Assembly: GCF_017468685.1 (NCBI RefSeq)
Contig: NZ_JAFUHT010000071.1
Location: 1 to 53,648 of the forward strand
Length of the DNA stretch: 53,648 bases
From: Methanobrevibacter sp.
Lineage (GTDB): Archaea > Methanobacteriota > Methanobacteria > Methanobacteriales > Methanobacteriaceae
Reading direction: 5' to 3'
A program made the position numbers and the translations under genes. Under the pieces are notes generated by a model. That model did not search any database. It saw only the letters and a program-made list of their open reading frames with translations, and was not told the origin of the DNA. This document shows positions 69 to 46,092 of the stretch, one piece after another. The first letter of the stretch is position 1. Each line of letters opens with the position of its first letter.

Positions 69-926
69 TTAGTATATAGCAGGGATTTTAACTCCCATTT
101 TAGCTCTTCTTTCACGTTCTGCAGTGTTTTTGTCTTTTTTACCTTTAGCTAATTTTTCAAGTAAAGGAAGACCTGGTTTTACATCGTCCATTGGTTTGGT
201 TTCGATTAAACCAGCGTCAACAGCAGCTTTGAATATGGAGTCACCATCATCAGTTCTGGTTAAAACAGTAGACCATCCATCAGGAGATCCTACAGAACCA
301 GTTGATACGTCAGCCCATTCAGCTACGTAATCTTGACAGATGTTACATCCAGCTTGTTCGTAACCGTGAGTTTCTTTGATAGCTAAACCACTGTCTTCAC
401 CATCTTTGGTTAACCAGAATTTACCTTTACCGATGTCCATTTTACTAGCATCTTGTAAGCTGTCAAATCCTAATTTTGCGGTAGCAAAGGTATCAAGAGA
501 AGCCATAGGGAAGTTTTCCATACAGTAGATACCGATGATTAATTTGATTTTGTCAACGACAAATCTAGTGAATGGATAAGCTTGTGCTTTTCTTAAACCT
601 TGGGTTTGACATGGAGTTGAGACTACACCAACTTTTTCTAAACCGTATTGACGGGTTGCTTCTTTTAATGCAGATAAGGTTGGGGACATTGAGTATTTTG
701 TACCTGCTGCAGCGATAACTTCGTCAGAGGAAGTTACTACAGTAGGGATAGGTCTCCAATCTTCATCAGGAGTTCCAGCAACAACTGCACCTTCAATGAT
801 TCCTTCATCGAGTGCGTAACAGAGTAATGCTGAAACGATTCCTCCGTCTTGTGATACATCTAAGATTTTTTTATCAGTAGATCTTGCAGATAATGCTTCT
901 TTATAAGTACCTAATGGCATGTTCAA
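69..926 (-). CDS. frhB: Coenzyme F420-reducing hydrogenase, beta subunit
   Basis: FrhB is the FAD-, F420- and [4Fe-4S]-binding subunit of the F420-reducing [NiFe] hydrogenase; it passes electrons from the FrhG clusters to coenzyme F420. The 285-residue protein has the family pattern: the [11 protein letters not shown] stretch near residue 26, the [10 protein letters not shown] segment, [19 protein letters not shown], and a cysteine pair (CNIC) near residue 195 followed by a [12 protein letters not shown] segment. It is the last gene of frhADGB, 5 bases after frhG, with the ribosome binding site GGAGGATTG before an ATG start. Length and order match Methanobacteriales Frh operons. Confidence 0.97.
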
Positions 927-931
927 TCCTC

Positions 932-1780
932 CTATAATCCAGTTTCCTCTTTAATTCTTTTTATAGGTAACCATGCTCTTGGACACATTGCATAACAAGA
1001 TCCACATTTAATACATCTATCTCTGTCACAGCTAGGTCTACCTTCAGAAAAGCCCATAGCTCTTGTAGGACAAGCTAGAGCACAAGTTCCACATCCAGTA
1101 CATAATCCGTTACGGATTACATTAGTTAATACGTCACAGCCACATCCAGTGTTGCAAGCAGCTTTATCGATTGCAGGTTGTAAGTATTCCATGTCTCCGT
1201 TACATAATGCTACAACAACTTTTGCAATCATTTCAGGAGCTACAGGACAACCAGGAAGTGCGCAATCAACTTTAACTAATTGACTAATTGGTGCAAATGA
1301 TTCGTGTTTAGGTTGTGCTTGTTGACCTCCACGTGCGAAGGTTGTGAAACAACCTGTCATAGCACAGGAACCGAATGCACAGATTAAACCTGATTTTTCT
1401 CTTGCCATTAAAAGTTCTTGGACACTGTGTTCATCTTGTAAACATACAGATCCTTCAATTAAACATAAGTCCATTTCAGGCATTTCTTCAGCGAAAGTAC
1501 CGTGAACCCATTTGTCAACTAAAGTTTGTCCGTATACAATATCAACCATATCAGTTAAAACTGTTGATAAAATGTCGTAATTTTCGGTTAAGGACATTGC
1601 ATCACCAGTACAACCACTTAAGTGTATGTAACCGATACGTGGTTTTGCTGAAGCAGCTTTGGTTTCTTCTGCAGGTGCAGTTTCAACAGGTGTTTCAGGA
1701 GCAGCTTCAACTTTTTCTTCTACTTTTGGAGCGATTTCTTCTTTAGAACCGCCAAAAGCTTTTTTCAATTTATCAAACAT
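932..1780 (-). CDS. frhG: Coenzyme F420-reducing hydrogenase, gamma subunit
   Basis: FrhG is the small, iron-sulfur subunit that carries electrons from the NiFe site in FrhA to FrhB. Residues 1-47 form a Lys/Glu/Ala/Pro-rich extension; the small-subunit core begins with [11 protein letters not shown]. Where most [NiFe] hydrogenases have a second Cys, residue 60 is Asp. An Asp at this place is reported as a ligand of the proximal cluster in methanogen Frh, so this is the expected Frh variant rather than a defect. The C-terminus has two [4Fe-4S] ferredoxin motifs ([12 protein letters not shown] and [12 protein letters not shown]). Its ATG shares one base with the frhD stop (TAATG), so translation is probably coupled. 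Confidence 0.97.
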
Positions 1781-4596: not shown

Positions 4597-5775
4597 TTAA
4601 AAATTATCTAAAGTGACTAATTTAGGTTTTTTAACTTCTTTTTCAAATAGAATCTGACCATATTGACCACCACCGCCAGGAATGATATCAACTGTACCAT
4701 TTCTAAAAGATTCGATTGCAGAAGCAATATCAACATCGATTTTTTCAATGTCATTTAAGTCAGCGTTTATTAAGACATTGATTTCAGTGCGAAAATTATC
4801 AATTAACTTTTGCCAGATTCCCTGTACAAATTTTGTGGTAACACCTTTATCATGAACTGAAGATATTATTTCAGCTAAAGGCATAAGATGTATGTAATCT
4901 GGTCTGAAACTTGGATGAATAGGTTCATTCAAATCTGCAATTTCAGATATTCTGAAATCTACTCCTTTTTTAATTGTTCCTCCACAGGAACATTTCATTT
5001 TATTTTCTCGAGAAACACAGGGATCAATTAATTTATGGCATTTGGTACATGCAGTCATGTGATATTTCCCCAAATTAGGGACAAGACCATAATTTGCTTT
5101 AACATCTTTGTTTTTAAAAGCCTTTTTAATTGAAGAGTATGAAATATCTTCAAGCTCTATTTGATTAAATTCACGACCCAATCTATGAGGCCATGGTGAG
5201 TGAGCATCAGAATTTGATAAAAATACAAAATCCTTCAGTTCAGATACTCTATCCGCCATATCTGTATCAGCAGACAATCCCAATTCTACAAAATCCGGTT
5301 TGGCATCATAACAGTCATAAATGCTATCATAAAACTTATACATTCCAGTCCATGGAGTAAATGCATGAGCAGGACCAATCAAACAATCATAATCATGAGC
5401 TAAATCCAATAGTTCCCCACCATCAAGATTAGTTTTAGGTCTGCCATCAATTGATTTGTTTTTGGAAGGTAATTTATCCGACAACTCGCTTGCAATATCA
5501 ATATCAGGCATTATTATAACATGATGAATCCTATGTTTTGCCTCAACTTCAGTGGTTAAAACAAAGTGCATTCCATCACAAGAATATATGCCATCGCCCA
5601 TATATTCAGTACTTTCACGGACAATATTCAGCCATTTTGGATGGAGTCCATCTCCAGTTCCTAAAAGCTGCAAACCCTTCAGTTTGGATTTTGAAGCAAT
5701 ATTTTCAATTAGCATGTCTTTTGACGATGCCATCGAAAAACAACTGTGAATGTGAAAATCCGCATTTACCAACAT
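4597..5775 (-). CDS. Endonuclease Q family protein (PHP domain, zinc finger)
   Basis: EndoQ nicks DNA 5' of deaminated bases and abasic sites; it is known from Thermococcales, some methanogens and some bacteria, and is stimulated by PCNA. The 392-residue protein starts with the PHP metal motif DFHIHS (His 8 and 10), continues with GTGDGLHPKW, GPAHAFTPWTG and SNSDAHSPWPHRLG, then a Cys-rich zinc-binding region (Cys 243, 246, 253, 262, 264) and a helical C-terminal domain. The last seven residues, LVTLDNF, resemble a PCNA-interacting peptide lacking the second aromatic residue. It is the distal gene of a run that starts with PCNA about 5 kb upstream, and it ends 3 bases from the convergent tRNA-Arg. 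Confidence 0.87.
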   Translation of the reverse strand: MLVNADFHIHSCFSMASSKDMLIENIASKSKLKGLQLLGTGDGLHPKWLNIVRESTEYMGDGIYSCDGMHFVLTTEVEAKHRIHHVIIMPDIDIASELSDKLPSKNKSIDGRPKTNLDGGELLDLAHDYDCLIGPAHAFTPWTGMYKFYDSIYDCYDAKPDFVELGLSADTDMADRVSELKDFVFLSNSDAHSPWPHRLGREFNQIELEDISYSSIKKAFKNKDVKANYGLVPNLGKYHMTACTKCHKLIDPCVSRENKMKCSCGGTIKKGVDFRISEIADLNEPIHPSFRPDYIHLMPLAEIISSVHDKGVTTKFVQGIWQKLIDNFRTEINVLINADLNDIEKIDVDIASAIESFRNGTVDIIPGGGGQYGQILFEKEVKKPKLVTLDNF

Positions 5776-5784
5776 AATTAAATG

Positions 5785-6330
5785 TTAGAAATTTTTATTA
5801 TTTAATATTTTTTTAACTTCCAAAAGAGGATGCTTATCCTTTTTTAACATTAAATCCACATCAATTTCAGATTTCGATTCGAGATTTCTTAAAAAATAGT
5901 TTGTTTTATCGATTAAATCAATGATTTCCTCTTGTGTGGTTGGATATGCAAGCCTTAATGTAGGAATGTTCAAATCAGTGACAATTTTAACAATCAAACT
6001 ATGTGCATTATTACAGGAATTTCCACCAAACAAAATCAATTCATTTAATGCATTATACATTCTTTTATAGTTTTTAGGACGTTTGCCTATAATTATAGCT
6101 GCATCAACCTTATCAATAATTTTAGAAAATAAAAATAGTCTTGATTTAACACCTGACGGAAGTTCACTAGACGAATATTTAGTAATCAGATTAGTGAATT
6201 CCAAATTTCCCTCGCAAATGTCCATATTATCATATTTGGAAAAATTACTGGGAGAGATATAATTATGTCCATTCTTTTCAATTAATGGAATAACAATCAT
6301 CGAAGCATCAGGAATAACAATAACATTCAT
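5785..6330 (-). CDS. Conserved hypothetical protein of unknown function
   Basis: I do not recognise this 181-residue protein. It begins MNVIVIPDASMIVIPLIEKNG, a beta-strand start typical of a Rossmann-like fold, has an AAIIIGKRPKNYKR segment and a GGNSCNNAHSLIVKIV segment that looks like a nucleotide-binding turn followed by a helix, and ends with a Lys-rich tail. There is no signal peptide or membrane segment. It lies 9 bases before endonuclease Q and 27 after the PAC2 chaperone gene, so it is probably co-transcribed with both. Confidence 0.75.
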   Translation of the reverse strand: MNVIVIPDASMIVIPLIEKNGHNYISPSNFSKYDNMDICEGNLEFTNLITKYSSSELPSGVKSRLFLFSKIIDKVDAAIIIGKRPKNYKRMYNALNELILFGGNSCNNAHSLIVKIVTDLNIPTLRLAYPTTQEEIIDLIDKTNYFLRNLESKSEIDVDLMLKKDKHPLLEVKKILNNKNF

Positions 6331-6357
6331 AAAAAAAGTAAATAAATATTGGATTAA

Positions 6358-7131
6358 TTATCCAATATATCTTAAATCATCAGCATTTCCAGCATTTGCC
6401 TTATTAATTAAATCCTGTTCCATTTGTTGAGCTTTAGCAATCATTTGTCTAGTTTCTTCAGCTCTTTCATCTAATTTATCAGTATTGATTTCAAAATTAA
6501 GCAAATGTGATAATTTCTTTAATAAAGCTTCAGCAGCCTCAGCATCAATGAAATAACCTGGAGTTTCACCCATAAGACAAGTTCCTTCAATTCCTTGACG
6601 GACACCCAATCCCAAGAATAATCCAGAAGCTCCAACAATACCACCATCATTAGATCTTATTTCAACTTCAGCTTCTTTTAACAGTTCAATATTTGCCTCA
6701 TTAGTAGCTGCTCCAAATACTTTAGGATTTTCAACCGGTTGAGGAGAAGTAACCATTCCTCCTAAAGTAAAAATTCTATCAATATTGAAATTACAAACAA
6801 ATTCTAAAATTTCCTTGCAAACTAAATATTGTCCTTCTGGAGACAAAGCTTGAGTATTACCTACAAGAATAATTAAATCCAAATTATCTTCACCAACATC
6901 CTTTAGATAATATAACTCATTAAGCATATTTTCTATTATTCCCTCATCTTTTACAACGACTTGAGGTGGAAAAGTTGGAGAATAAATTTCAGCAAATTTA
7001 GTAGCTCCTAATTCATCAATTATATGATCCGCCGCCAATTTACCTACATGTCCAAGACCAGGTAATGCTTCTATGAAAATAGGATTTTCTAGCTCAATTT
7101 CTTCTAAAACATTAATTTCAGTAGTATTCAT
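6358..7131 (-). CDS. Proteasome assembly chaperone family protein (PAC2/PbaA type)
   Basis: Archaeal PAC2-family proteins help assemble or cap the 20S proteasome. The product of about 257 residues has the family pattern: [20 protein letters not shown] near the N-terminus, [17 protein letters not shown] in the middle, [33 protein letters not shown] and a [23 protein letters not shown] segment, then a coiled C-terminal helix rich in Glu, Gln and Lys. Two in-frame ATGs lie at 7137 and 7131; the binding site AAGGAG inside the end of nop10 is only 2 bases from the first and 8 from the second, so 7131 is preferred. Last of the L44e-S27e-aIF2alpha-Nop10-PAC2 block. Confidence 0.88.
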
Positions 7132-39010: not shown

Positions 39011-40110
39011 TTATTTTCCGTAGTTTAAAATGTTTATGGATGCGTTCAAGTCCCGGTCCAGTATTGTTCCGCAGTTTGGACATTGCCATTCTCGTTCTTC
39101 TATGGTTAATTCTGTGTTTTTAAAGCCGCAGACATGACAATATTGTGAGGATGCATAATATCTAGGCACTTCAACGAATTTTTTACCGTATAATTCGCAT
39201 TTGTATTTTATCATGTTTTTTAGCATCCCTAGACTTGCCCTGTGTAATCCTCTGCTGTAATCGTGGTCAAGTATCATTTCTTTAGGTTTAAGTTTTCCAT
39301 TTTGATTACATCATATTCTTTGACTATGTCTTTGCTTATTTTATGATAATATTCTCTTTTAATATTGTTCTTTTTGTTTGTGTGTTTGTGTAGGGTTTTT
39401 AGTGTTTTTTTGTAGTTTTCGCTGCCATGTTCTTTTCTTTTGAGTTCTTTTTGTGTTTTTTTGATTTTAGCTTCTATTTCATTTAGTTTTAGCTTGGCTT
39501 TTGCTTTACAATCTGAAAGTGTGGCTAATGTTTTAACACCTAAATCTATTCCGACTTCTTTACCGGTTTTAGGAAAAGCTTCCAGCAGCACAGTATCATA
39601 CACGACTATAATAAACCATTGGCTGTTTTTTAATTGTATTCGTATGTGTTTGATTTTTCCAGTTATTTCTGATCTGTATCCTTTGAGATTAATCCATCCC
39701 AATGGCTTCCAGTATAATTTACCTTTTCGGACACGTATTCTATTGTTTATGTTGTTGATTTTTACTGATTGTGAGGATTGGTACTTTTTTTTGAACTTAG
39801 GATGTCCGAATCCTCGTTTAAAAAAGTTATCATAAGCTTGAAGTACTGGTTCATAGCATGCCTGCATAGTATTAATATCCAAATCATTAATAAAAGGATA
39901 CCATTCTCTTAAATACTTAAATATGGATTCCACATAATTGGTGTTGACATATGGTGCACGATAATTGAATAGATTGGCTATACGTCTGTTGTACTCTATT
40001 TCACCAATTATGTTATTGTTAATGAATCGTGAATGTCCCAAATATTGTTTAAACAAGTTTTCTTGTTTTTGATTAGGATAAACACGATGCCTACAAGACC
40101 GATAAACCAT
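39011..40110 (-). pseudogene. tnpB: RNA-guided endonuclease TnpB, split by a frameshift
   Basis: The first part (40110 to 39274) starts at ATG after GAGGGAG and has the TnpB N-terminus (RSCRHRVYPNQKQENLFKQYLG), RuvC I (EVGIDLGVKTLATLSD) and RuvC II (VIKMENLNLKK), then a TGA. The second (39277 to 39011, ATGA overlap, shifted frame) supplies the rest: SRGLHRASLGMLKNM, the zinc ribbon CHVCGF / CPNCGT and the RuvC III Asp in DRDLNASINIL. The three catalytic acidic residues are therefore divided between two frames. Joined length, about 366 residues, is normal for TnpB. Probably inactive unless the frames are rejoined or the parts associate. Confidence 0.85.
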
Positions 40111-40255
40111 AAAATACTCCCTCATTACTAAAAACTTTTTTTATAATACATAGTATAATACTATTTAATATAACAAATAACCGCGAGAGAGCATTTGAAA
40201 ACTAAACTTTAAAAAATATATATCAGTATTTAATATGATTCATTTTTTGTGAAAT

Positions 40256-40330: not shown

Positions 40331-41200
40331 ATGAAAGATGAAGATATTGACCGTCCACAGGCCATGAAAATCCGCCAGGGCATTCAGGATGCAATGACAT
40401 ATTCCCTTCCGGACAAGAAATTCAGTCCTAAAAACATTGATTTGGTGGAAATAGATATTGAACTGGACAATTTAGGTTGGAATTTTCATAATTATAGGAT
40501 TTTAAACCTAACTGATATCCATTTGGGACAATGGATAAATCCCGAGTATCTGGATGATTTGATTGATTATGTAAACACCTTGAATTATGATATTGTCACA
40601 CTGACCGGAGACTATGTATCATACGTTATTGACGGTTATGATGCTGCATTATCAAAATCCTTGAAAAAATTAAAGTCTCCTGATGGTAAGTTTGGTGTTT
40701 TAGGAAATCATGACCATTGGATGGGTTCTGAAAAAATCAGAGAAATATTTAAAGAAGCAAATATTGTTGATTTGAGCAATGATGTTTATGTATTAAAAAA
40801 GAATGATGATGAATTGAATCTTGCAGGTGTTGATTCCTGCACTGTTTGTGCAGATAATTTAGATAAAGTTTTAGCTAAATTAAAGAATGGCATATCCACA
40901 ATATTGCTTGCCCATGAACCGGACTTTGCACAGGAATCTTCACAAACCGGCAGAATTGATTTGCAGATTTCCGGCCATTCACATGGAGGCCAGTTCATCA
41001 TTCCTAAATTTGAAACAACCCCCTTCAGAGGACCTAACTCAACCAAATATCCGGTTGGACTATACAAGGTTAAAGACATGATTCAATACACAAGCAAAGG
41101 ATTGGGCACCAATTCATTTAGAATTAGGATTAATTGCAAGCCTGAAATAACAATTATTACTTTGAAAAATAAGAATAAACGGAAAATTGAGATAGAATGA
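40331..41200 (+). CDS. Metallophosphoesterase
   Basis: A calcineurin-like phosphoesterase of 289 residues with all five metal motifs: LTDIHLG (D, H), TGDYV, GNHDHW, LLAHEPDF and ISGHSHGGQ. It resembles the YkuE/YaeI group, thought to act on nucleotide-linked or lipid-linked pyrophosphates near the membrane. The TATA-like AGATAAATAG at about 40299-40308 would put transcription at or beside the ATG, so the mRNA is probably leaderless. It overlaps the next gene by 4 bases. Confidence 0.9.
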   Translation: MKDEDIDRPQAMKIRQGIQDAMTYSLPDKKFSPKNIDLVEIDIELDNLGWNFHNYRILNLTDIHLGQWINPEYLDDLIDYVNTLNYDIVTLTGDYVSYVIDGYDAALSKSLKKLKSPDGKFGVLGNHDHWMGSEKIREIFKEANIVDLSNDVYVLKKNDDELNLAGVDSCTVCADNLDKVLAKLKNGISTILLAHEPDFAQESSQTGRIDLQISGHSHGGQFIIPKFETTPFRGPNSTKYPVGLYKVKDMIQYTSKGLGTNSFRIRINCKPEITIITLKNKNKRKIEIE

Positions 41201-43326
41201 GTTTTAAAAACGCTGTAATTTCCTCACTGAAAACACTGATAACAACAGTTCTTCTGATATTAGCCAATATTGCAGCTGTTGTTGGAGTGGATTACATCAG
41301 CAATGATTTTACTGTTGGTCCATTGTATAATGCATTGGTTATTGTTATTGCAGTTGCAGTTGCAAATTCTGTACTTTGGCCGATTTTCAGGCGTTTTTTG
41401 ATGAAATTCATCATTTTGACATTTGGGATTGGAGCACTTGTCATTAACTCAGTTATCTTTTATATTGCAACATATTTTATTCCTGGTGTTCATGTCGGCT
41501 TTTATGGTTTTTGGCAGGTGCCAATTGTCATGGCAATAGCTACAACATTCATAACCAACATAACAAACACAAACTATTATGATTCATACATTAAAAGCAT
41601 TTTAAAATATGCCCTTAAACAAAAATCACCATATAATAAAAGATACTCTGGAGTCATAATGCTTGAAATAGATGGGTTATCAATTAATACCCTGAAAAAG
41701 GCAATTGACAATGATTATATGCCAACACTTAAAAAATGGTTAAATGAGAAAACACACACATTAAAAGAATGGGAAACCGATTTATCATCACAGACTGGAT
41801 CAAGTCAAGCAGGAATCTTACATGGAAACAATGAAGACATCGTGGCTTACAGATGGGTTGAAAAGGAAAATGATAATAAAATCATGGTTTCAGGAAAATT
41901 AAGCCATGCTCCGGAAATTGAAAAAAGAATTAGCAATGGCGAAGGTCTACTTGTAAATGGAATGAGCATTGCAAACATGTTTTCAGGAGATAGTAAAATA
42001 TCTGCCTTAACCTCATCAAAACTAGAATCAATCACAAGAATATATAATAAAACACTGCATTCTGTGTTTTTAGACTCATATAATTTCCAAAGAATATTTG
42101 TATTGTTCCTATGGGACATTCTAATGGAGTTAAAATCACAGTTAATGCATGATATAAAAAATATTAAACCACGACTTAGAAGAACAATTGTTTATGCTGC
42201 AATCAGAGCAGGCGCTAATGTTGTTTTAAGAGAAGCAACCACTGAAATTTTAACCAGTGAAATATTCAGAGGAGAAATCGATACCGCCTATGCAACATTC
42301 ATGGGATATGATGAAATAGCACACCATTCTGGTGTTGAGGATGATGATGTTTGGGGTGTTCTAAAACAGATCGACCTGCAGTTTTCCAGATTAACATCAG
42401 CAATTGAAATGGGCGACAGAGATTATGAATTAATAGTATTATCAGACCATGGACAAAGCAAGGGAGCCACTTTTAAACAGAGATATGGTTTGACACTTGG
42501 AAATTATGTCAGACGTCTTCTTCCTGAGGATTTGAAGTTTTTTAAAAATGAGTACAATATTGATCACTTTAGAGATGCAGTAATTCCTGAAAACAGACAA
42601 TTGCAAAACATTAAGGAACATGTTGAAAACATCCGTGACGACTTATTTGACAAAGAAGAAGGACGCGTTCAAAACATCCGAAAAGAAATTGGAGAACACA
42701 AACCTAAGATTATTTTTGAAAACGAACAGTTCATAAATCTTCGTGAAAAATACTCCAACAGCTTAGAATACATTACTTCTCATGAAACCAGACAATTAAG
42801 TACTGAAAAGGCAAAGGATTCCGAACTGATTGTCTTGGGTTCTGGAAATCTTGGTCTGATTTATTTGACACAATGGAGCCAACGCCTAAATTATGAGGAA
42901 ATAGTAATGTTGTTCCCCGAATTAATTCCAGGACTTGTCAACCATTCTGGAATTGGATTCATTCTTGTCAATTCAATAGCTAATGGAGGAATGGTTATCG
43001 GCAAGAGAGGAATTTATTACCTTGACAGTGATAAGATAGTTGGTGAAAATCCCCTCAAGGACTTTGGTGTGAATGCTCACAGACACCTGAAAAGGCAAAA
43101 TAGCTTCAAAAACATGCCCGATATTATGGTTAACAGTTTTTATGATAGCGTGAATGATGAAGTCTGTGCATTTGAAGAGTTGATTGGAAGCCATGGTGGA
43201 CTTGGCGGAAATCAAACAAAACCATTTATTTTATATCCTTCCAAATGGGACGATCCCGGTGAATTGGTTGGTGCTGAATCGATTTATAAATTCTTAAAAA
43301 AAGAAATAGAAAGTTTAGATTCTTGA
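41197..43326 (+). CDS. Holin-like 4-TM domain fused to alkaline phosphatase-superfamily phosphodiesterase
   Basis: A 709-residue membrane enzyme. Residues 1-125 form four hydrophobic helices like the phage holin superfamily IV domain; from about residue 155 follows an alkaline phosphatase/nucleotide pyrophosphatase-type domain with LEIDGLS (metal Asp), SQTGSSQAGILHG (nucleophile region), MGYDEIAHHSG, VLSDHGQSKG and GSHGGLGGNQTKPF. The catalytic set looks complete. The domain probably faces outside and acts on lipid- or cell-wall-linked phosphodiesters; that is inference. Co-transcribed with the metallophosphoesterase. Its 3' end overlaps the convergent sirtuin gene by 12 bases. Confidence 0.88.
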   Translation: MSFKNAVISSLKTLITTVLLILANIAAVVGVDYISNDFTVGPLYNALVIVIAVAVANSVLWPIFRRFLMKFIILTFGIGALVINSVIFYIATYFIPGVHVGFYGFWQVPIVMAIATTFITNITNTNYYDSYIKSILKYALKQKSPYNKRYSGVIMLEIDGLSINTLKKAIDNDYMPTLKKWLNEKTHTLKEWETDLSSQTGSSQAGILHGNNEDIVAYRWVEKENDNKIMVSGKLSHAPEIEKRISNGEGLLVNGMSIANMFSGDSKISALTSSKLESITRIYNKTLHSVFLDSYNFQRIFVLFLWDILMELKSQLMHDIKNIKPRLRRTIVYAAIRAGANVVLREATTEILTSEIFRGEIDTAYATFMGYDEIAHHSGVEDDDVWGVLKQIDLQFSRLTSAIEMGDRDYELIVLSDHGQSKGATFKQRYGLTLGNYVRRLLPEDLKFFKNEYNIDHFRDAVIPENRQLQNIKEHVENIRDDLFDKEEGRVQNIRKEIGEHKPKIIFENEQFINLREKYSNSLEYITSHETRQLSTEKAKDSELIVLGSGNLGLIYLTQWSQRLNYEEIVMLFPELIPGLVNHSGIGFILVNSIANGGMVIGKRGIYYLDSDKIVGENPLKDFGVNAHRHLKRQNSFKNMPDIMVNSFYDSVNDEVCAFEELIGSHGGLGGNQTKPFILYPSKWDDPGELVGAESIYKFLKKEIESLDS

Positions 43327-44160
43327 AAGCCAATAATCTAAAATTTCACCAACATCCTCATCAAAGCTGATTGTTTTATCCTTATTTTCTGATATTGCCT
43401 GAGGATAGTCTAAATTTAATCTGATTAGTGTTGCTTCAGGAGTATTGTAAGTCATCTGTTCAAATGGATATCTTATAATTGTAGGAGTGTTGAATCCAAC
43501 ACCAATTTCCAAAAATACAACCTTACCATCGACTTTTCGTAAGAATTTGGAGTAGTTTTCACTCATCTGATGCCATTTTCCATCTTCAACAAAATAAGCA
43601 TCCTTTCTCACATTTATCTCCATATTGCCTCCGCAGACAGGACATACTGGAACAAGTTCTGATGGGATTTTACAGTCTTCAATCTTATCCAATGCCTCAT
43701 GGACAAGTTCTTCGTTTGAATACAGTTTCTTGTGGCATGCCTTTTCACATTGCATCAGTCCGTAATCCCCTTGGGTTGCAAATATTCTTTCATCCTCAAA
43801 ACCGTTAATCCAGAACTGATGCTCCACATTTGTTGTAAGAACAAAGTATTCCTTGTCCTTTACAAGTTCCAGCAATTGCTGATATATTTTTGTTTTTCCT
43901 ACAGAATATCTGTTTAGATTAACATGACGTATCCAATGAGCCCATTTTTCTTCCTGAGTAGCATATGGATAGAATGTCGCCGAATACATATCCTGAACTC
44001 CATATTTTTCAATGAAATCCTGGAAATTGTCCCTGAAACGCTGACCAGTGTATTCAACGCCCGCAGCTGTTGACAATCCTGCTCCTGCTCCAATGATAAC
44101 ATAGTCAGCATCATCTATTGCTTTTTTTGCCTGATCTAATCTTTGTACAAATTTTTCCAT
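43315..44160 (-). CDS. Class M sirtuin (SirTM-like), probable protein ADP-ribosyltransferase
   Basis: Sirtuins of this class, found beside macrodomain genes in Firmicutes and fungi, transfer ADP-ribose from NAD rather than deacetylate. The 281 residues show the NAD loop GAGAGLSTAAGVEYTG (24-39), FVLTTNVEHQFWINGF (106-121) in place of the usual TQNVDxLH, TQGDYGLMQC, and four zinc Cys (138, 142 with CEKAC spacing, then 173 and 176 in CPVC). The final Rossmann strands hold FLEIGVGFNTPTIIRYPFE. It lies 2 bases after the macrodomain gene. No GcvH-L or lipoate ligase is adjacent, unlike the extended bacterial operon. Confidence 0.88.
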   Translation of the reverse strand: MEKFVQRLDQAKKAIDDADYVIIGAGAGLSTAAGVEYTGQRFRDNFQDFIEKYGVQDMYSATFYPYATQEEKWAHWIRHVNLNRYSVGKTKIYQQLLELVKDKEYFVLTTNVEHQFWINGFEDERIFATQGDYGLMQCEKACHKKLYSNEELVHEALDKIEDCKIPSELVPVCPVCGGNMEINVRKDAYFVEDGKWHQMSENYSKFLRKVDGKVVFLEIGVGFNTPTIIRYPFEQMTYNTPEATLIRLNLDYPQAISENKDKTISFDEDVGEILDYWLSRI

Positions 44161-44162
44161 TT

Positions 44163-44945
44163 TTACTCTCCGAACAATAATTTTTTATATATTAAATAAT
44201 CCTTATCTGTAAATACATTAAAAATCACATGTTTCAATGTGGTTTCTGTTGAACTTAAATATTCTTCAACTGTTCTTATTGCAATTTCAGCCGCCAAATC
44301 CTGTGGAAAGTTAAATACTCCTGTTGAAATGCAGCAGAATGCAATGGAATCCAATTCATTATAAGTTGCTATATCCAGACATGATTTATAACAGCTTGCA
44401 AGTGCATCAATGTCTCTATCTGAAGGTTTGAATCCCTGAGGGATTTGAGGCCCTACTGTGTGAATCACATATTTTGAAGGCAGATTATATGCTCCAGTGA
44501 TTTTTGCCTTTCCAACTTCCTCATCGACATTCTGGATTTTCATTATGGTATTGCATTCATCCCTTAACTGCAAACCAGCCGCTGAGTGGATTACATTATC
44601 AATGCAGTTGTGTTGTGGTATAAAACAGCCCAATAATTTGGAATTGGCCGCATTGACAATTGCATCTACTTTTAAAGTCGTAATATCTCCCTGCCAAAGC
44701 ATGATTTTTCCTTTCACTTCATCGATGTCAGATGGTGAAGTCAAATTTTTAGTTAATGTTTCAGCAGTTAAGAATTCATCCTGAACTTTTAAAAATTCAT
44801 TAGATATCTCATTAGGCAATCTTACATTCATCAATGATCTGAGCAATGCTCTTTTTGATTGATAATCAGTTGGGACATTAATTTTCTCATTTCTTTCATC
44901 CAGCAGGTAGTTGATTAAGTAATCTAATTGTTCAGCAGTGTTAAT
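44163..44945 (-). CDS. Zinc-type macrodomain protein-ADP-ribose hydrolase
   Basis: The enzyme removes ADP-ribose from proteins. The motifs are [26 protein letters not shown], the zinc ligands in [19 protein letters not shown] (Cys 107, His 112, Cys 114 from the chosen start) and [11 protein letters not shown]. The nearest canonical start, a TTG at 44846, would drop 33 residues that read as a good family N-terminus ([20 protein letters not shown]) and has no binding site. A strong AAGGAGGG at 44959-44952 sits 7 bases before an in-frame ATT at 44945, with a TAA further upstream and no ATG, GTG or TTG between. Start at ATT is therefore proposed, giving 260 residues. First gene of the sirtuin pair. 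Confidence 0.85.
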
Positions 44946-45039
44946 TTCAATCCCTCCTTGAATTTGTTAATAATAATTTAAATTACAGTATTTAAATGAT
45001 TTTCGTAACTTTAAGGAAACCAGGTAAGAAAAAAGTAAC

Positions 45040-45071: not shown

Positions 45072-45449
45072 ATGAACACTGAAAAGATAATTTGTCCAGT
45101 TGACCGGACCTTAAGTTTAATCAACAAGAAATGGAGCATTCAAATAATTCGAGACATGTTTTTCGGCAAAAAGCACTTCAAGGAATTTAAAGAAGACAAG
45201 CCTAAACTAAGCAATAAAGTACTGTCAAGCTGTCTTAAAGACCTTGAGGAAAATGGTCTTATTGAAAAGAAAGTCTTAAACACTACTCCAGTGACAACCG
45301 AGTATTATTTAACTGAATATGGGCGTTCAATGAACAGGATTGTTTATGAGCTTGCAATGTTCACATTAAGCGCCGAGGACAGTTACACAGAAGAAACAAG
45401 AAATGAGTTAAAAGAGACTTTCAGAAAAACATTGGAAATTGATGATTGA
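45072..45449 (+). CDS. HxlR-family winged-helix transcriptional regulator
   Basis: The 125-residue regulator has CPVDRTLSLINKKWSIQIIRDMFFG, FKEFKEDKPKLSNKVLSSCLKDLEENGLI and the wing ending TEYYLTEYGRSM, matching HxlR/MarR-like one-domain repressors. One Cys near the N-terminus could sense oxidants or electrophiles. It is one base from cbiE, which it may control, and divergent from the macrodomain-sirtuin pair, which it could also control. Confidence 0.9.
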   Translation: MNTEKIICPVDRTLSLINKKWSIQIIRDMFFGKKHFKEFKEDKPKLSNKVLSSCLKDLEENGLIEKKVLNTTPVTTEYYLTEYGRSMNRIVYELAMFTLSAEDSYTEETRNELKETFRKTLEIDD

Positions 45450-45450
45450 A

Positions 45451-46092
45451 ATGACAGGTAAAATTTATATTGTGGGAATTGGTCCTGGTTCCAGTGAGTA
45501 TCTGACTAAAAAAGCCATCGATACAGTTGAGATGAGCGATTATACTGTTGGAAGCATAAGAGCCATTGAATTATTTGATAGTGTTCAAAATAAAATTGCA
45601 TTCAATGTTAAGGATTTGCTTGACAAATTAGAAGAAGGTGTTGAATTAGCTGTTGGTGGAAAAACTGTTTCAGTACTATCAACAGGAGATCCTGGTTTTT
45701 CAGGTGTTTTAAATACTGTCTTAAGATTATCCGATGAGAAGAATTTCCCTAAAGAAAATATTGAAGTGATACCAGGAATAAGTTCTCTGCAGCTTGCTGC
45801 CGCCAAATGTCATATTCAATGGGACAATGCAAATGTAATGACATTTCATGGTAGAGAAAATATTGAAGAGATTTTACCAGTTATCAACAATGGAAAAATA
45901 ACAATTGCACTTCCTTCAAGAAAAGTGAAGGACATGGCACAGTTTTTACTGGATAATGGTGTTGAAGCTAACAGAAAAGTTGTGGTTTGTGAACGCTTAA
46001 GTTACCCTGATGAGAAAATTGTTGAAGCCACATTAAATGACATTGCCAATAGTGAATTTACTTATATGTGTATAATTGTCATATATCCGTAA
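45451..46092 (+). CDS. cbiE: Cobalt-precorrin-7 C5-methyltransferase
   Basis: CbiE is a SAM-dependent methyltransferase of anaerobic cobalamin synthesis; methanogens need cobamides for Mtr. The 213 residues show the N-terminal IYIVGIGPGSSEYLTKKA, VLSTGDPGFSGVL and VIPGISSLQLAAAK typical of the tetrapyrrole methylase fold. ATG 45451 follows GATGATTGAA; 45442 is an alternative. CbiT is not fused or adjacent. Confidence 0.9.
   Translation: MTGKIYIVGIGPGSSEYLTKKAIDTVEMSDYTVGSIRAIELFDSVQNKIAFNVKDLLDKLEEGVELAVGGKTVSVLSTGDPGFSGVLNTVLRLSDEKNFPKENIEVIPGISSLQLAAAKCHIQWDNANVMTFHGRENIEEILPVINNGKITIALPSRKVKDMAQFLLDNGVEANRKVVVCERLSYPDEKIVEATLNDIANSEFTYMCIIVIYP

Follow-up and report, generated by a model that had tools for sequence, protein, structure and literature searches.

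What does a class M sirtuin modify in a methanogen that has no lipoylated carrier protein to offer it? The question is raised by a 53,648-nucleotide contig of a Methanobrevibacter sp. genome (NZ_JAFUHT010000071.1 of assembly GCF_017468685.1; "the window" below means this whole stretch), on which a zinc-type macrodomain gene (Zn-Macro) and a class M sirtuin gene (SirTM) lie side by side. We consider it probable, at roughly 70%, that the pair is a lipoyl-independent ADP-ribosylation switch within a thiol- or electrophile-stress regulon controlled by a divergently encoded HxlR-type regulator. Three elements of this picture appear to be new: the HxlR partner, a rare candidate operator, and a linkage of SirTM/Zn-Macro to a radical SAM-associated peptide system, ACGX. 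The archaeal pair thereby gains a predicted regulator and a predicted operator, and the linkage supplies the first concrete candidate for its target.

The gene pair and the missing lipoyl route

The two open reading frames (ORFs), macrodomain 44945-44163 and sirtuin 44160-43315, are separated by 2 bases (ORFs were called with a simple picker, and neighbouring genes were labelled with hidden Markov models built on the loci examined):

44163 to 44945, minus strand: Zn-Macro, predicted (ADP-ribosyl)hydrolase, 260 amino acids from an ATT start at 44945-44943 (8rsi match, start alignment, Cx4HxC, NAAN)
43315 to 44160, minus strand: SirTM, class M sirtuin, predicted protein ADP-ribosyltransferase, 281 amino acids (5a3a match, motifs, tree)
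44953 to 44957, minus strand: Shine-Dalgarno GGAGG, 7 nucleotides upstream of the ATT start (sequence)

The best PDB match of the sirtuin is Streptococcus pyogenes SirTM (5a3a), which aligns over almost the whole length with E=4e-56, and 8rsn, a fungal fusion of macrodomain and SirTM, is also among its best relatives; its score against Pfam SIR2 (PF02146), 22.8 bits, falls under the Pfam cut-off, as expected because the class is divergent. The protein carries GAGAGLS, TTNVEHQF, QGD, and GVGFNTP, the last an instance, at residue 220, of the class motif GVGx[NT]TP. Gln130 of QGD, aligned with the QG of SpySirTM, replaces the catalytic histidine, and the Asn and Gln of class M sirtuins have been tied to ADP-ribosyl transfer (Rack et al., 2015, PMC4518038); ADP-ribosyltransferase and not deacylase activity is predicted by analogy with homologues. 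The genome encodes a second, canonical sirtuin on contig C83, and in a quick maximum-likelihood tree with that protein as the only outgroup the window SirTM lies far from it. Motifs and tree together rule out a canonical deacetylase.

The macrodomain (PF01661, 124 bits) is closest in the PDB to MorMacro (8rsi, E=1e-119) and then to SauMacro (5kiv/8rsl). It has NAAN98, the Zn-loop Cx4HxC (C107...H112.C114), DNVIH, and GVF209, as well as an Asp/His dyad and an active-site arene assigned by alignment to SauMacro; read from the ATT start, residues 2-259 cover nearly all of 8rsi and with it the N-terminal three-helix bundle. Genetic linkage or fusion to a Zn-type macrodomain is itself a trait of the SirTM class; in the window the gap is 2 bases, and the linkage is kept in relatives. 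Judged from their homologues, the two proteins would form a genuine writer/eraser pair for mono-ADP-ribosylation, and the preliminary description, which had reported such a pair 2 bases apart and set the sirtuin apart from canonical deacetylases, holds in both respects. Nor is the pairing a matter of chance, since 75 of 139 Methanobacteriaceae genomes, spread over 4 genera, have retained SirTM, which almost always stands directly behind the macrodomain gene; widening the search to the phylum added no further SirTM in 13 additional genomes.

The start codon of Zn-Macro is unusual across the window's genus (g1), where, of 46 loci aligned at one position, 26 have ATA, ATT, or ATC there and 20 have ATG, with a Shine-Dalgarno sequence about 6-7 bases upstream. 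The non-ATG starts include 44945-44943 of the window and positions in loci L142-L181. Standard gene callers would shorten such genes and lose part of the N-terminal helix bundle, and the ORF list of the window does show Zn-Macro shortened at its N-terminus. No non-ATG starts were seen in sirTM, hxlR, or cbiE, though few of those genes were covered, and the metallophosphatase gene was uninformative. One may speculate that poor initiation of Zn-Macro would tip the balance towards the writer.

The pair as such is not new to methanogens, as it had first seemed to be: MorMacro of Methanobrevibacter oralis has been solved (8rsi-8rsk) and assayed, and its context named a "minimal operon" of Zn-Macro and SirTM alone (Ariza et al., 2024, PMC11490716). 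The window has the same two genes and the same Zn-loop, here with a macrodomain that starts at ATT. The parts of that account cited here report that MorMacro strips ADP-ribose from PARP1 and not from GcvH-L, mention neither a regulator nor ACGX, and call the targets of minimal-operon systems unknown, which agrees with the preliminary description's statement that the target in a methanogen is unassigned.

Lipoyl GcvH-L is the only proven SirTM substrate, and the extended operons that carry it with LplA2 belong to Lactobacillales and Staphylococcaceae (PMC4518038). The acceptor of ADP-ribose in GcvH-L is Asp27. The writer and eraser of these operons in Staphylococcus and Streptococcus (PMC4518038) are homologous to the window pair and identical to it in catalytic motifs, but none of the accompanying GcvH-L, LplA2, OYE, and LLM genes stands beside the window pair, and SpySirTM, from an extended operon, falls outside the clade that holds most Methanobacteriaceae SirTMs. 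The absence of GcvH-L and LplA, first noted for the neighbourhood, extends to the genome: profile searches of this 96%-complete assembly gave no match above threshold to GCV_H and none to LplA-B_cat, whereas 13 of 14 control genomes were matched. The target is for this reason taken to be non-lipoylated. The earlier generalisation that the bacterial pair comes with GcvH-L and LplA2 is right for the extended operons and too broad otherwise, a motif screen having found neither gene beside any of the 80 bacterial loci fetched.

Three candidates for a lipoyl system in relatives were rejected. Weak GCV_H matches elsewhere in the family, mostly in ORFs of 570-580 amino acids, are read from ORF size and partial coverage as biotin-carrier subunits (pyruvate carboxylase subunit B); weak, partial LplA-B_cat matches in ORFs of about 310 amino acids are read as biotin ligases; and an ORF pair upstream of the macrodomain gene in locus L045, considered as a split ligase, is unlike a ligase in sequence (judged without a profile scan).

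The HxlR-type regulator and a candidate operator

The preliminary description had rightly named an HxlR regulator, cbiE, and a phosphodiesterase as the neighbours, and had treated the regulator as incidental. It is instead an important clue. The regulator and the intervening promoter elements are as follows:

45072 to 45449, plus strand: divergent regulator of the HxlR/DUF24 type, its N-terminus bearing a CP cysteine, Cys8 (PF01638, 79 bits)
45024 to 45039, minus strand: operator copy 1, GTTAC-N6-CTTAC, on the hxlR side, degenerate here (alignment)
45005 to 45020, minus strand: operator copy 2, GTTTC-N6-GTTAC, touching the predicted transcription factor B recognition element (BRE)/TATA of macro-sirTM (alignment)
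44989 to 44996, minus strand: predicted TATA box TTTAAATA for macro-sirTM (read off the conserved block GTTACAAAAATCATTTAAATA)

Across all loci, HxlR genes fall within 3 genes of the core at 36 of 278 positions upstream and 2 of 278 downstream (p=2e-9), mostly divergently, and the bias is as plain in bacteria alone (25 upstream, 1 downstream), where HxlR is the commonest neighbour of the pair besides the macrodomain. Within Methanobacteriaceae its placement next to the pair takes at least three different forms. A literature search found no paper joining HxlR with a macrodomain or a sirtuin, so that a divergent HxlR-type regulator as conserved partner of the pair in archaea and gut bacteria looks new.

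The window protein has both the HxlR winged helix and the N-terminal cysteine, which is kept at the sensor position in 50 of 51 archaeal HxlR proteins, and it resembles the redox regulator RrpB, with 67 bits, below the cut-off of the RrpB model. Related DUF24 regulators use such an N-terminal cysteine to detect HOCl, quinones, and diamide, and by it HypR, YodB, and CatR respond to thiol stress (PMC6943732), and Bacillus subtilis HxlR senses formaldehyde by a Cys-x-Lys pair, Cys11/Lys13 (PMC7835342). All four B. subtilis proteins have PF01638 and the sensor-position cysteine in common with the window regulator, but the Cys-x-Lys pair is not kept in it (C8-P9-V10). The window HxlR is accordingly more likely a thiol sensor than a formaldehyde-crosslink sensor, with redox sensing and DNA binding as predictions.

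An alignment, for 38 loci, of the region between the divergent hxlR and macro genes shows a conserved block that reads GTTAC-N6-GTAAC and then GTTTC-N6-GTTACAAAAATCATTTAAATA, in which the operator copies lead directly into the BRE/TATA predicted for macro; the position of copy 1 reads GTTAC-N6-GTAAC in many relatives of the window. Half-sites are far more frequent than in dinucleotide shuffles, with 98 against 7.0 expected in hxlR/macro regions, 41 against 3.7 in hxlR/ppox, and 17 against 0.7 in duf169/macro. Strict sites are rare, numbering 1-3 per genome in 7 of 8 genomes and falling below a reversed control pattern in most, and many of them lie on the hxlR/macro, hxlR/ppox, and duf169/macro promoters, at a second ppox, and at a Cys-repeat peptide/radical SAM operon. 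One is retained on the macro promoter of genome G036, whose adjacent hxlR is lost; some others, such as in G114, are located within coding regions and look fortuitous. GTTAC-N6-GTAAC and its variants, common to the promoters of the pair, ppox, and ACGX, thus look like a new candidate operator. A further perfect operator in this genome (contig C14, 9465-9484, locus L204) sits between a second HxlR gene and a P-loop ATPase gene, a possible additional member of the regulon.

On the reading we favour, the writer and eraser would be made from one transcript under the divergent HxlR-type regulator, and thiol, electrophile, or oxygen stress would alter binding of that regulator at GTTAC-N6-GTAAC operators on the promoter. 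The same operator set may co-express the pair with FMN-binding PPOX proteins in related genomes and, in this genome and 30 further Methanobacteriaceae, with the ACGX peptide/radical SAM operon; SirTM would place ADP-ribose on a non-lipoylated target, and Zn-Macro would remove it. Several observations weigh against this reading. Both operator copies in the window are degenerate, the loci of genus g12 have no HxlR nearby, and the adjacent hxlR has been lost in some g1 species. The HxlR position counts include related species, whose neighbourhoods are not independent, and several HxlR paralogues in Methanobacteriaceae may read the same operator, so that a common site is not proof of a common regulator.

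The ACGX peptide system and the question of the target

The ACGX system (TIGR04340 and TIGR04341) lies outside the window in this genome, on contig C21, where a radical SAM protein scores 558-577 bits against rSAM_ACGX (TIGR04340, cut-off 400) and adjoins a 123-amino-acid peptide gene with 9 ACGSD repeats. A perfect operator stands 99 bases upstream of the peptide's ATG, and all 17 archaeal ACGX peptide genes that could be located have a GTWAC-N6-GTWAC site 90-162 bases upstream, a count that leaves out 13 other fetched loci in which a simple repeat search gave no peptide. Archaeal peptides were assigned by repeat and position: the TIGR04341 profile gave no match in the two archaeal peptides scanned, and it does match the Sporomusa peptide (48 bits over 28). 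Nothing on ACGX peptides was found in a literature search, and the linkage described here ties this functionally uncharacterised system to a defined enzymology.

In bacteria, the ACGX system often forms one operon with SirTM/Zn-Macro, as seen in Sporomusa, Marinilabiliales, Prevotellaceae, Oscillospiraceae, and Lachnospiraceae. A frequent order has hxlR divergent from a run of ACGX, rSAM, nitroreductase or ADH, PPOX, Zn-Macro, and SirTM, with members missing or swapped in some cases. For Lachnospiraceae, so that SirTM would play no part in the selection, TIGR04340 served as the starting point in a set of 250 genomes from the Coprococcus comes family. TIGR04340 occurs in 31; SirTM is present in 26 of these 31 as against 88 of the 219 genomes without TIGR04340 (p=4e-6), and it lies within about 5 kb of rSAM_ACGX in 17 of the 31. 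Among Methanobacteriaceae, rSAM_ACGX also occurs in 31 genomes (this one and the 30 others), of which 28 have SirTM (p=3e-6, phylogeny ignored). Inside genus g1 the co-occurrence is 17 of 17 (p=6e-4, or p=0.04 at completeness of at least 90%), and within g12 alone there is no association. The dependence is one-sided: ACGX is rarely found without SirTM, whereas SirTM is often found without ACGX (47 of 75 archaeal genomes and 88 of 114 Lachnospiraceae, with 29 other SirTM-bearing genomes of the window's genus among those lacking it).

The best-surviving proposal for the target is that the radical SAM-modified peptide is a substrate, SirTM ADP-ribosylating its Asp/Glu or Cys residues and Zn-Macro reversing the mark, so that ACGX would be a second substrate class replacing lipoyl-GcvH-L in gut anaerobes and methanogens under a thiol-sensing HxlR. 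In addition to the shared operons and the co-occurrence, the archaeal repeats, CGSD or CGSE, combine a cysteine with an acid, the acceptor of GcvH-L being itself an Asp; and Zn-Macros are the only hydrolases known to cleave Cys-ADP-ribose (PMC11490716). Association is not modification, however, and the archaeal part of it is qualified by phylogeny, by the nearly complete g1 genomes, and by g12 as described above. Since most SirTM genomes lack ACGX, the peptide cannot be the sole substrate; it could be one client, supplying Asp/Glu and Cys residues. We advance the proposal tentatively, with the odds well against it, as the head of a short list of bench-testable targets on which the PPOX and nitroreductase partners come next.

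A general metabolic protein of methanogens as target, for example a redox enzyme or the biotin carrier domain of pyruvate carboxylase, would account for SirTM in genomes without ACGX. Among the proteins of these genomes, that domain comes closest to the lipoyl carrier fold, and the family's only weak GCV_H matches are the ORFs read as pyruvate carboxylase subunit B. No genomic link to such a protein was found, though, such proteins are also present in genomes without SirTM, and MorMacro leaves ADP-ribose on the lipoyl carrier GcvH-L (PMC11490716); we regard this alternative as unlikely. A defence or toxin/antitoxin-like NAD-consuming system, in place of a stress regulator, might be suggested by the adjacency of writer and eraser and by a tree that shows movement between phyla, but the neighbours are HxlR, PPOX, nitroreductase, and GPx genes rather than phage-related ones (no defence-library scan was made), and chromosomal synteny is kept across the genus, which makes this explanation very improbable. 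That a lipoylated carrier is used after all, encoded elsewhere or scavenged, draws on its standing as the proven substrate and is largely refuted by the profile searches, which gave only weak partial matches family-wide.

Neighbourhoods, spread, and minor observations

Two flanking genes are kept with the pair in the window's genus and are probably outside the module:

45439 to 46092, plus strand: cbiE-like tetrapyrrole methylase (profile match, synteny)
41197 to 43326, plus strand: phosphodiesterase-family protein, convergent, overlapping the 3' end of sirTM by 12 bp (profile match, synteny)

The full order, with cbiE and hxlR leftward, macro and sirTM rightward, and pde and mpp leftward, is kept in about 35 loci of the genus. 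Other Methanobacteriaceae have ppox divergent from hxlR, macro, and sirTM, or hxlR divergent from macro, sirTM, and ppox. In g12, the fourth genus to carry the pair, GPx and flavodoxin genes lie downstream of it, a context that favours the stress-regulon reading. In genus g9, hxlR is divergent from ppox and duf169 is divergent from macro and sirTM, with a nicotinamide phosphoribosyltransferase gene downstream in several genomes. This gene (NAMPT_N and NAPRTase domains) adjoins SirTM genes in L032 at 4944-6377 (minus), in L033 at 345-1778 (minus), and in L189 and L197, and its product would recycle the nicotinamide set free by SirTM.

A profile scan of genome contigs returned at least 565 relatives, from which 80 loci were kept, from bacteria (mostly gut anaerobes) and one Methanomassiliicoccus metagenome-assembled genome. 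In the quick tree, most Methanobacteriaceae SirTMs fall in one starred clade (99), interleaved with bacteria that include Streptococcus, Bacilli, Sporomusa, Marinilabiliales, and Prevotellaceae, several of them ACGX-linked; the archaeal sequences L037, L038, and L039 are outliers on long branches. This topology is consistent with exchange among gut anaerobes.

In some genomes of g9 the first SirTM is immediately followed by a second (L032 6662-7522, minus; L033 1984-2844, minus; L034 9603-10466, plus; L035 9009-9911, plus), with GGEYLS for GAGAGLS, NG for QG, and no GVGFNTP motif. This second copy, kept in several genomes, has the look of a pseudo-sirtuin without catalytic activity and might serve as a subunit or regulator. 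L037 (G047, contig C16; 7664-8494, plus) is a solitary divergent SirTM that has no macrodomain partner; HxlR/PPOX-like genes flank it on one side and flavodoxin-type reductases on the other. The Methanomassiliicoccus genome (L127, 8628-9251, plus) has a fusion of a PPOX-like and a 4Fe-4S ferredoxin domain directly upstream of Zn-Macro. Elsewhere in the window, at 39011-40125 on the minus strand, a TnpB/IS605-type transposase gene is apparently split into two overlapping ORFs.

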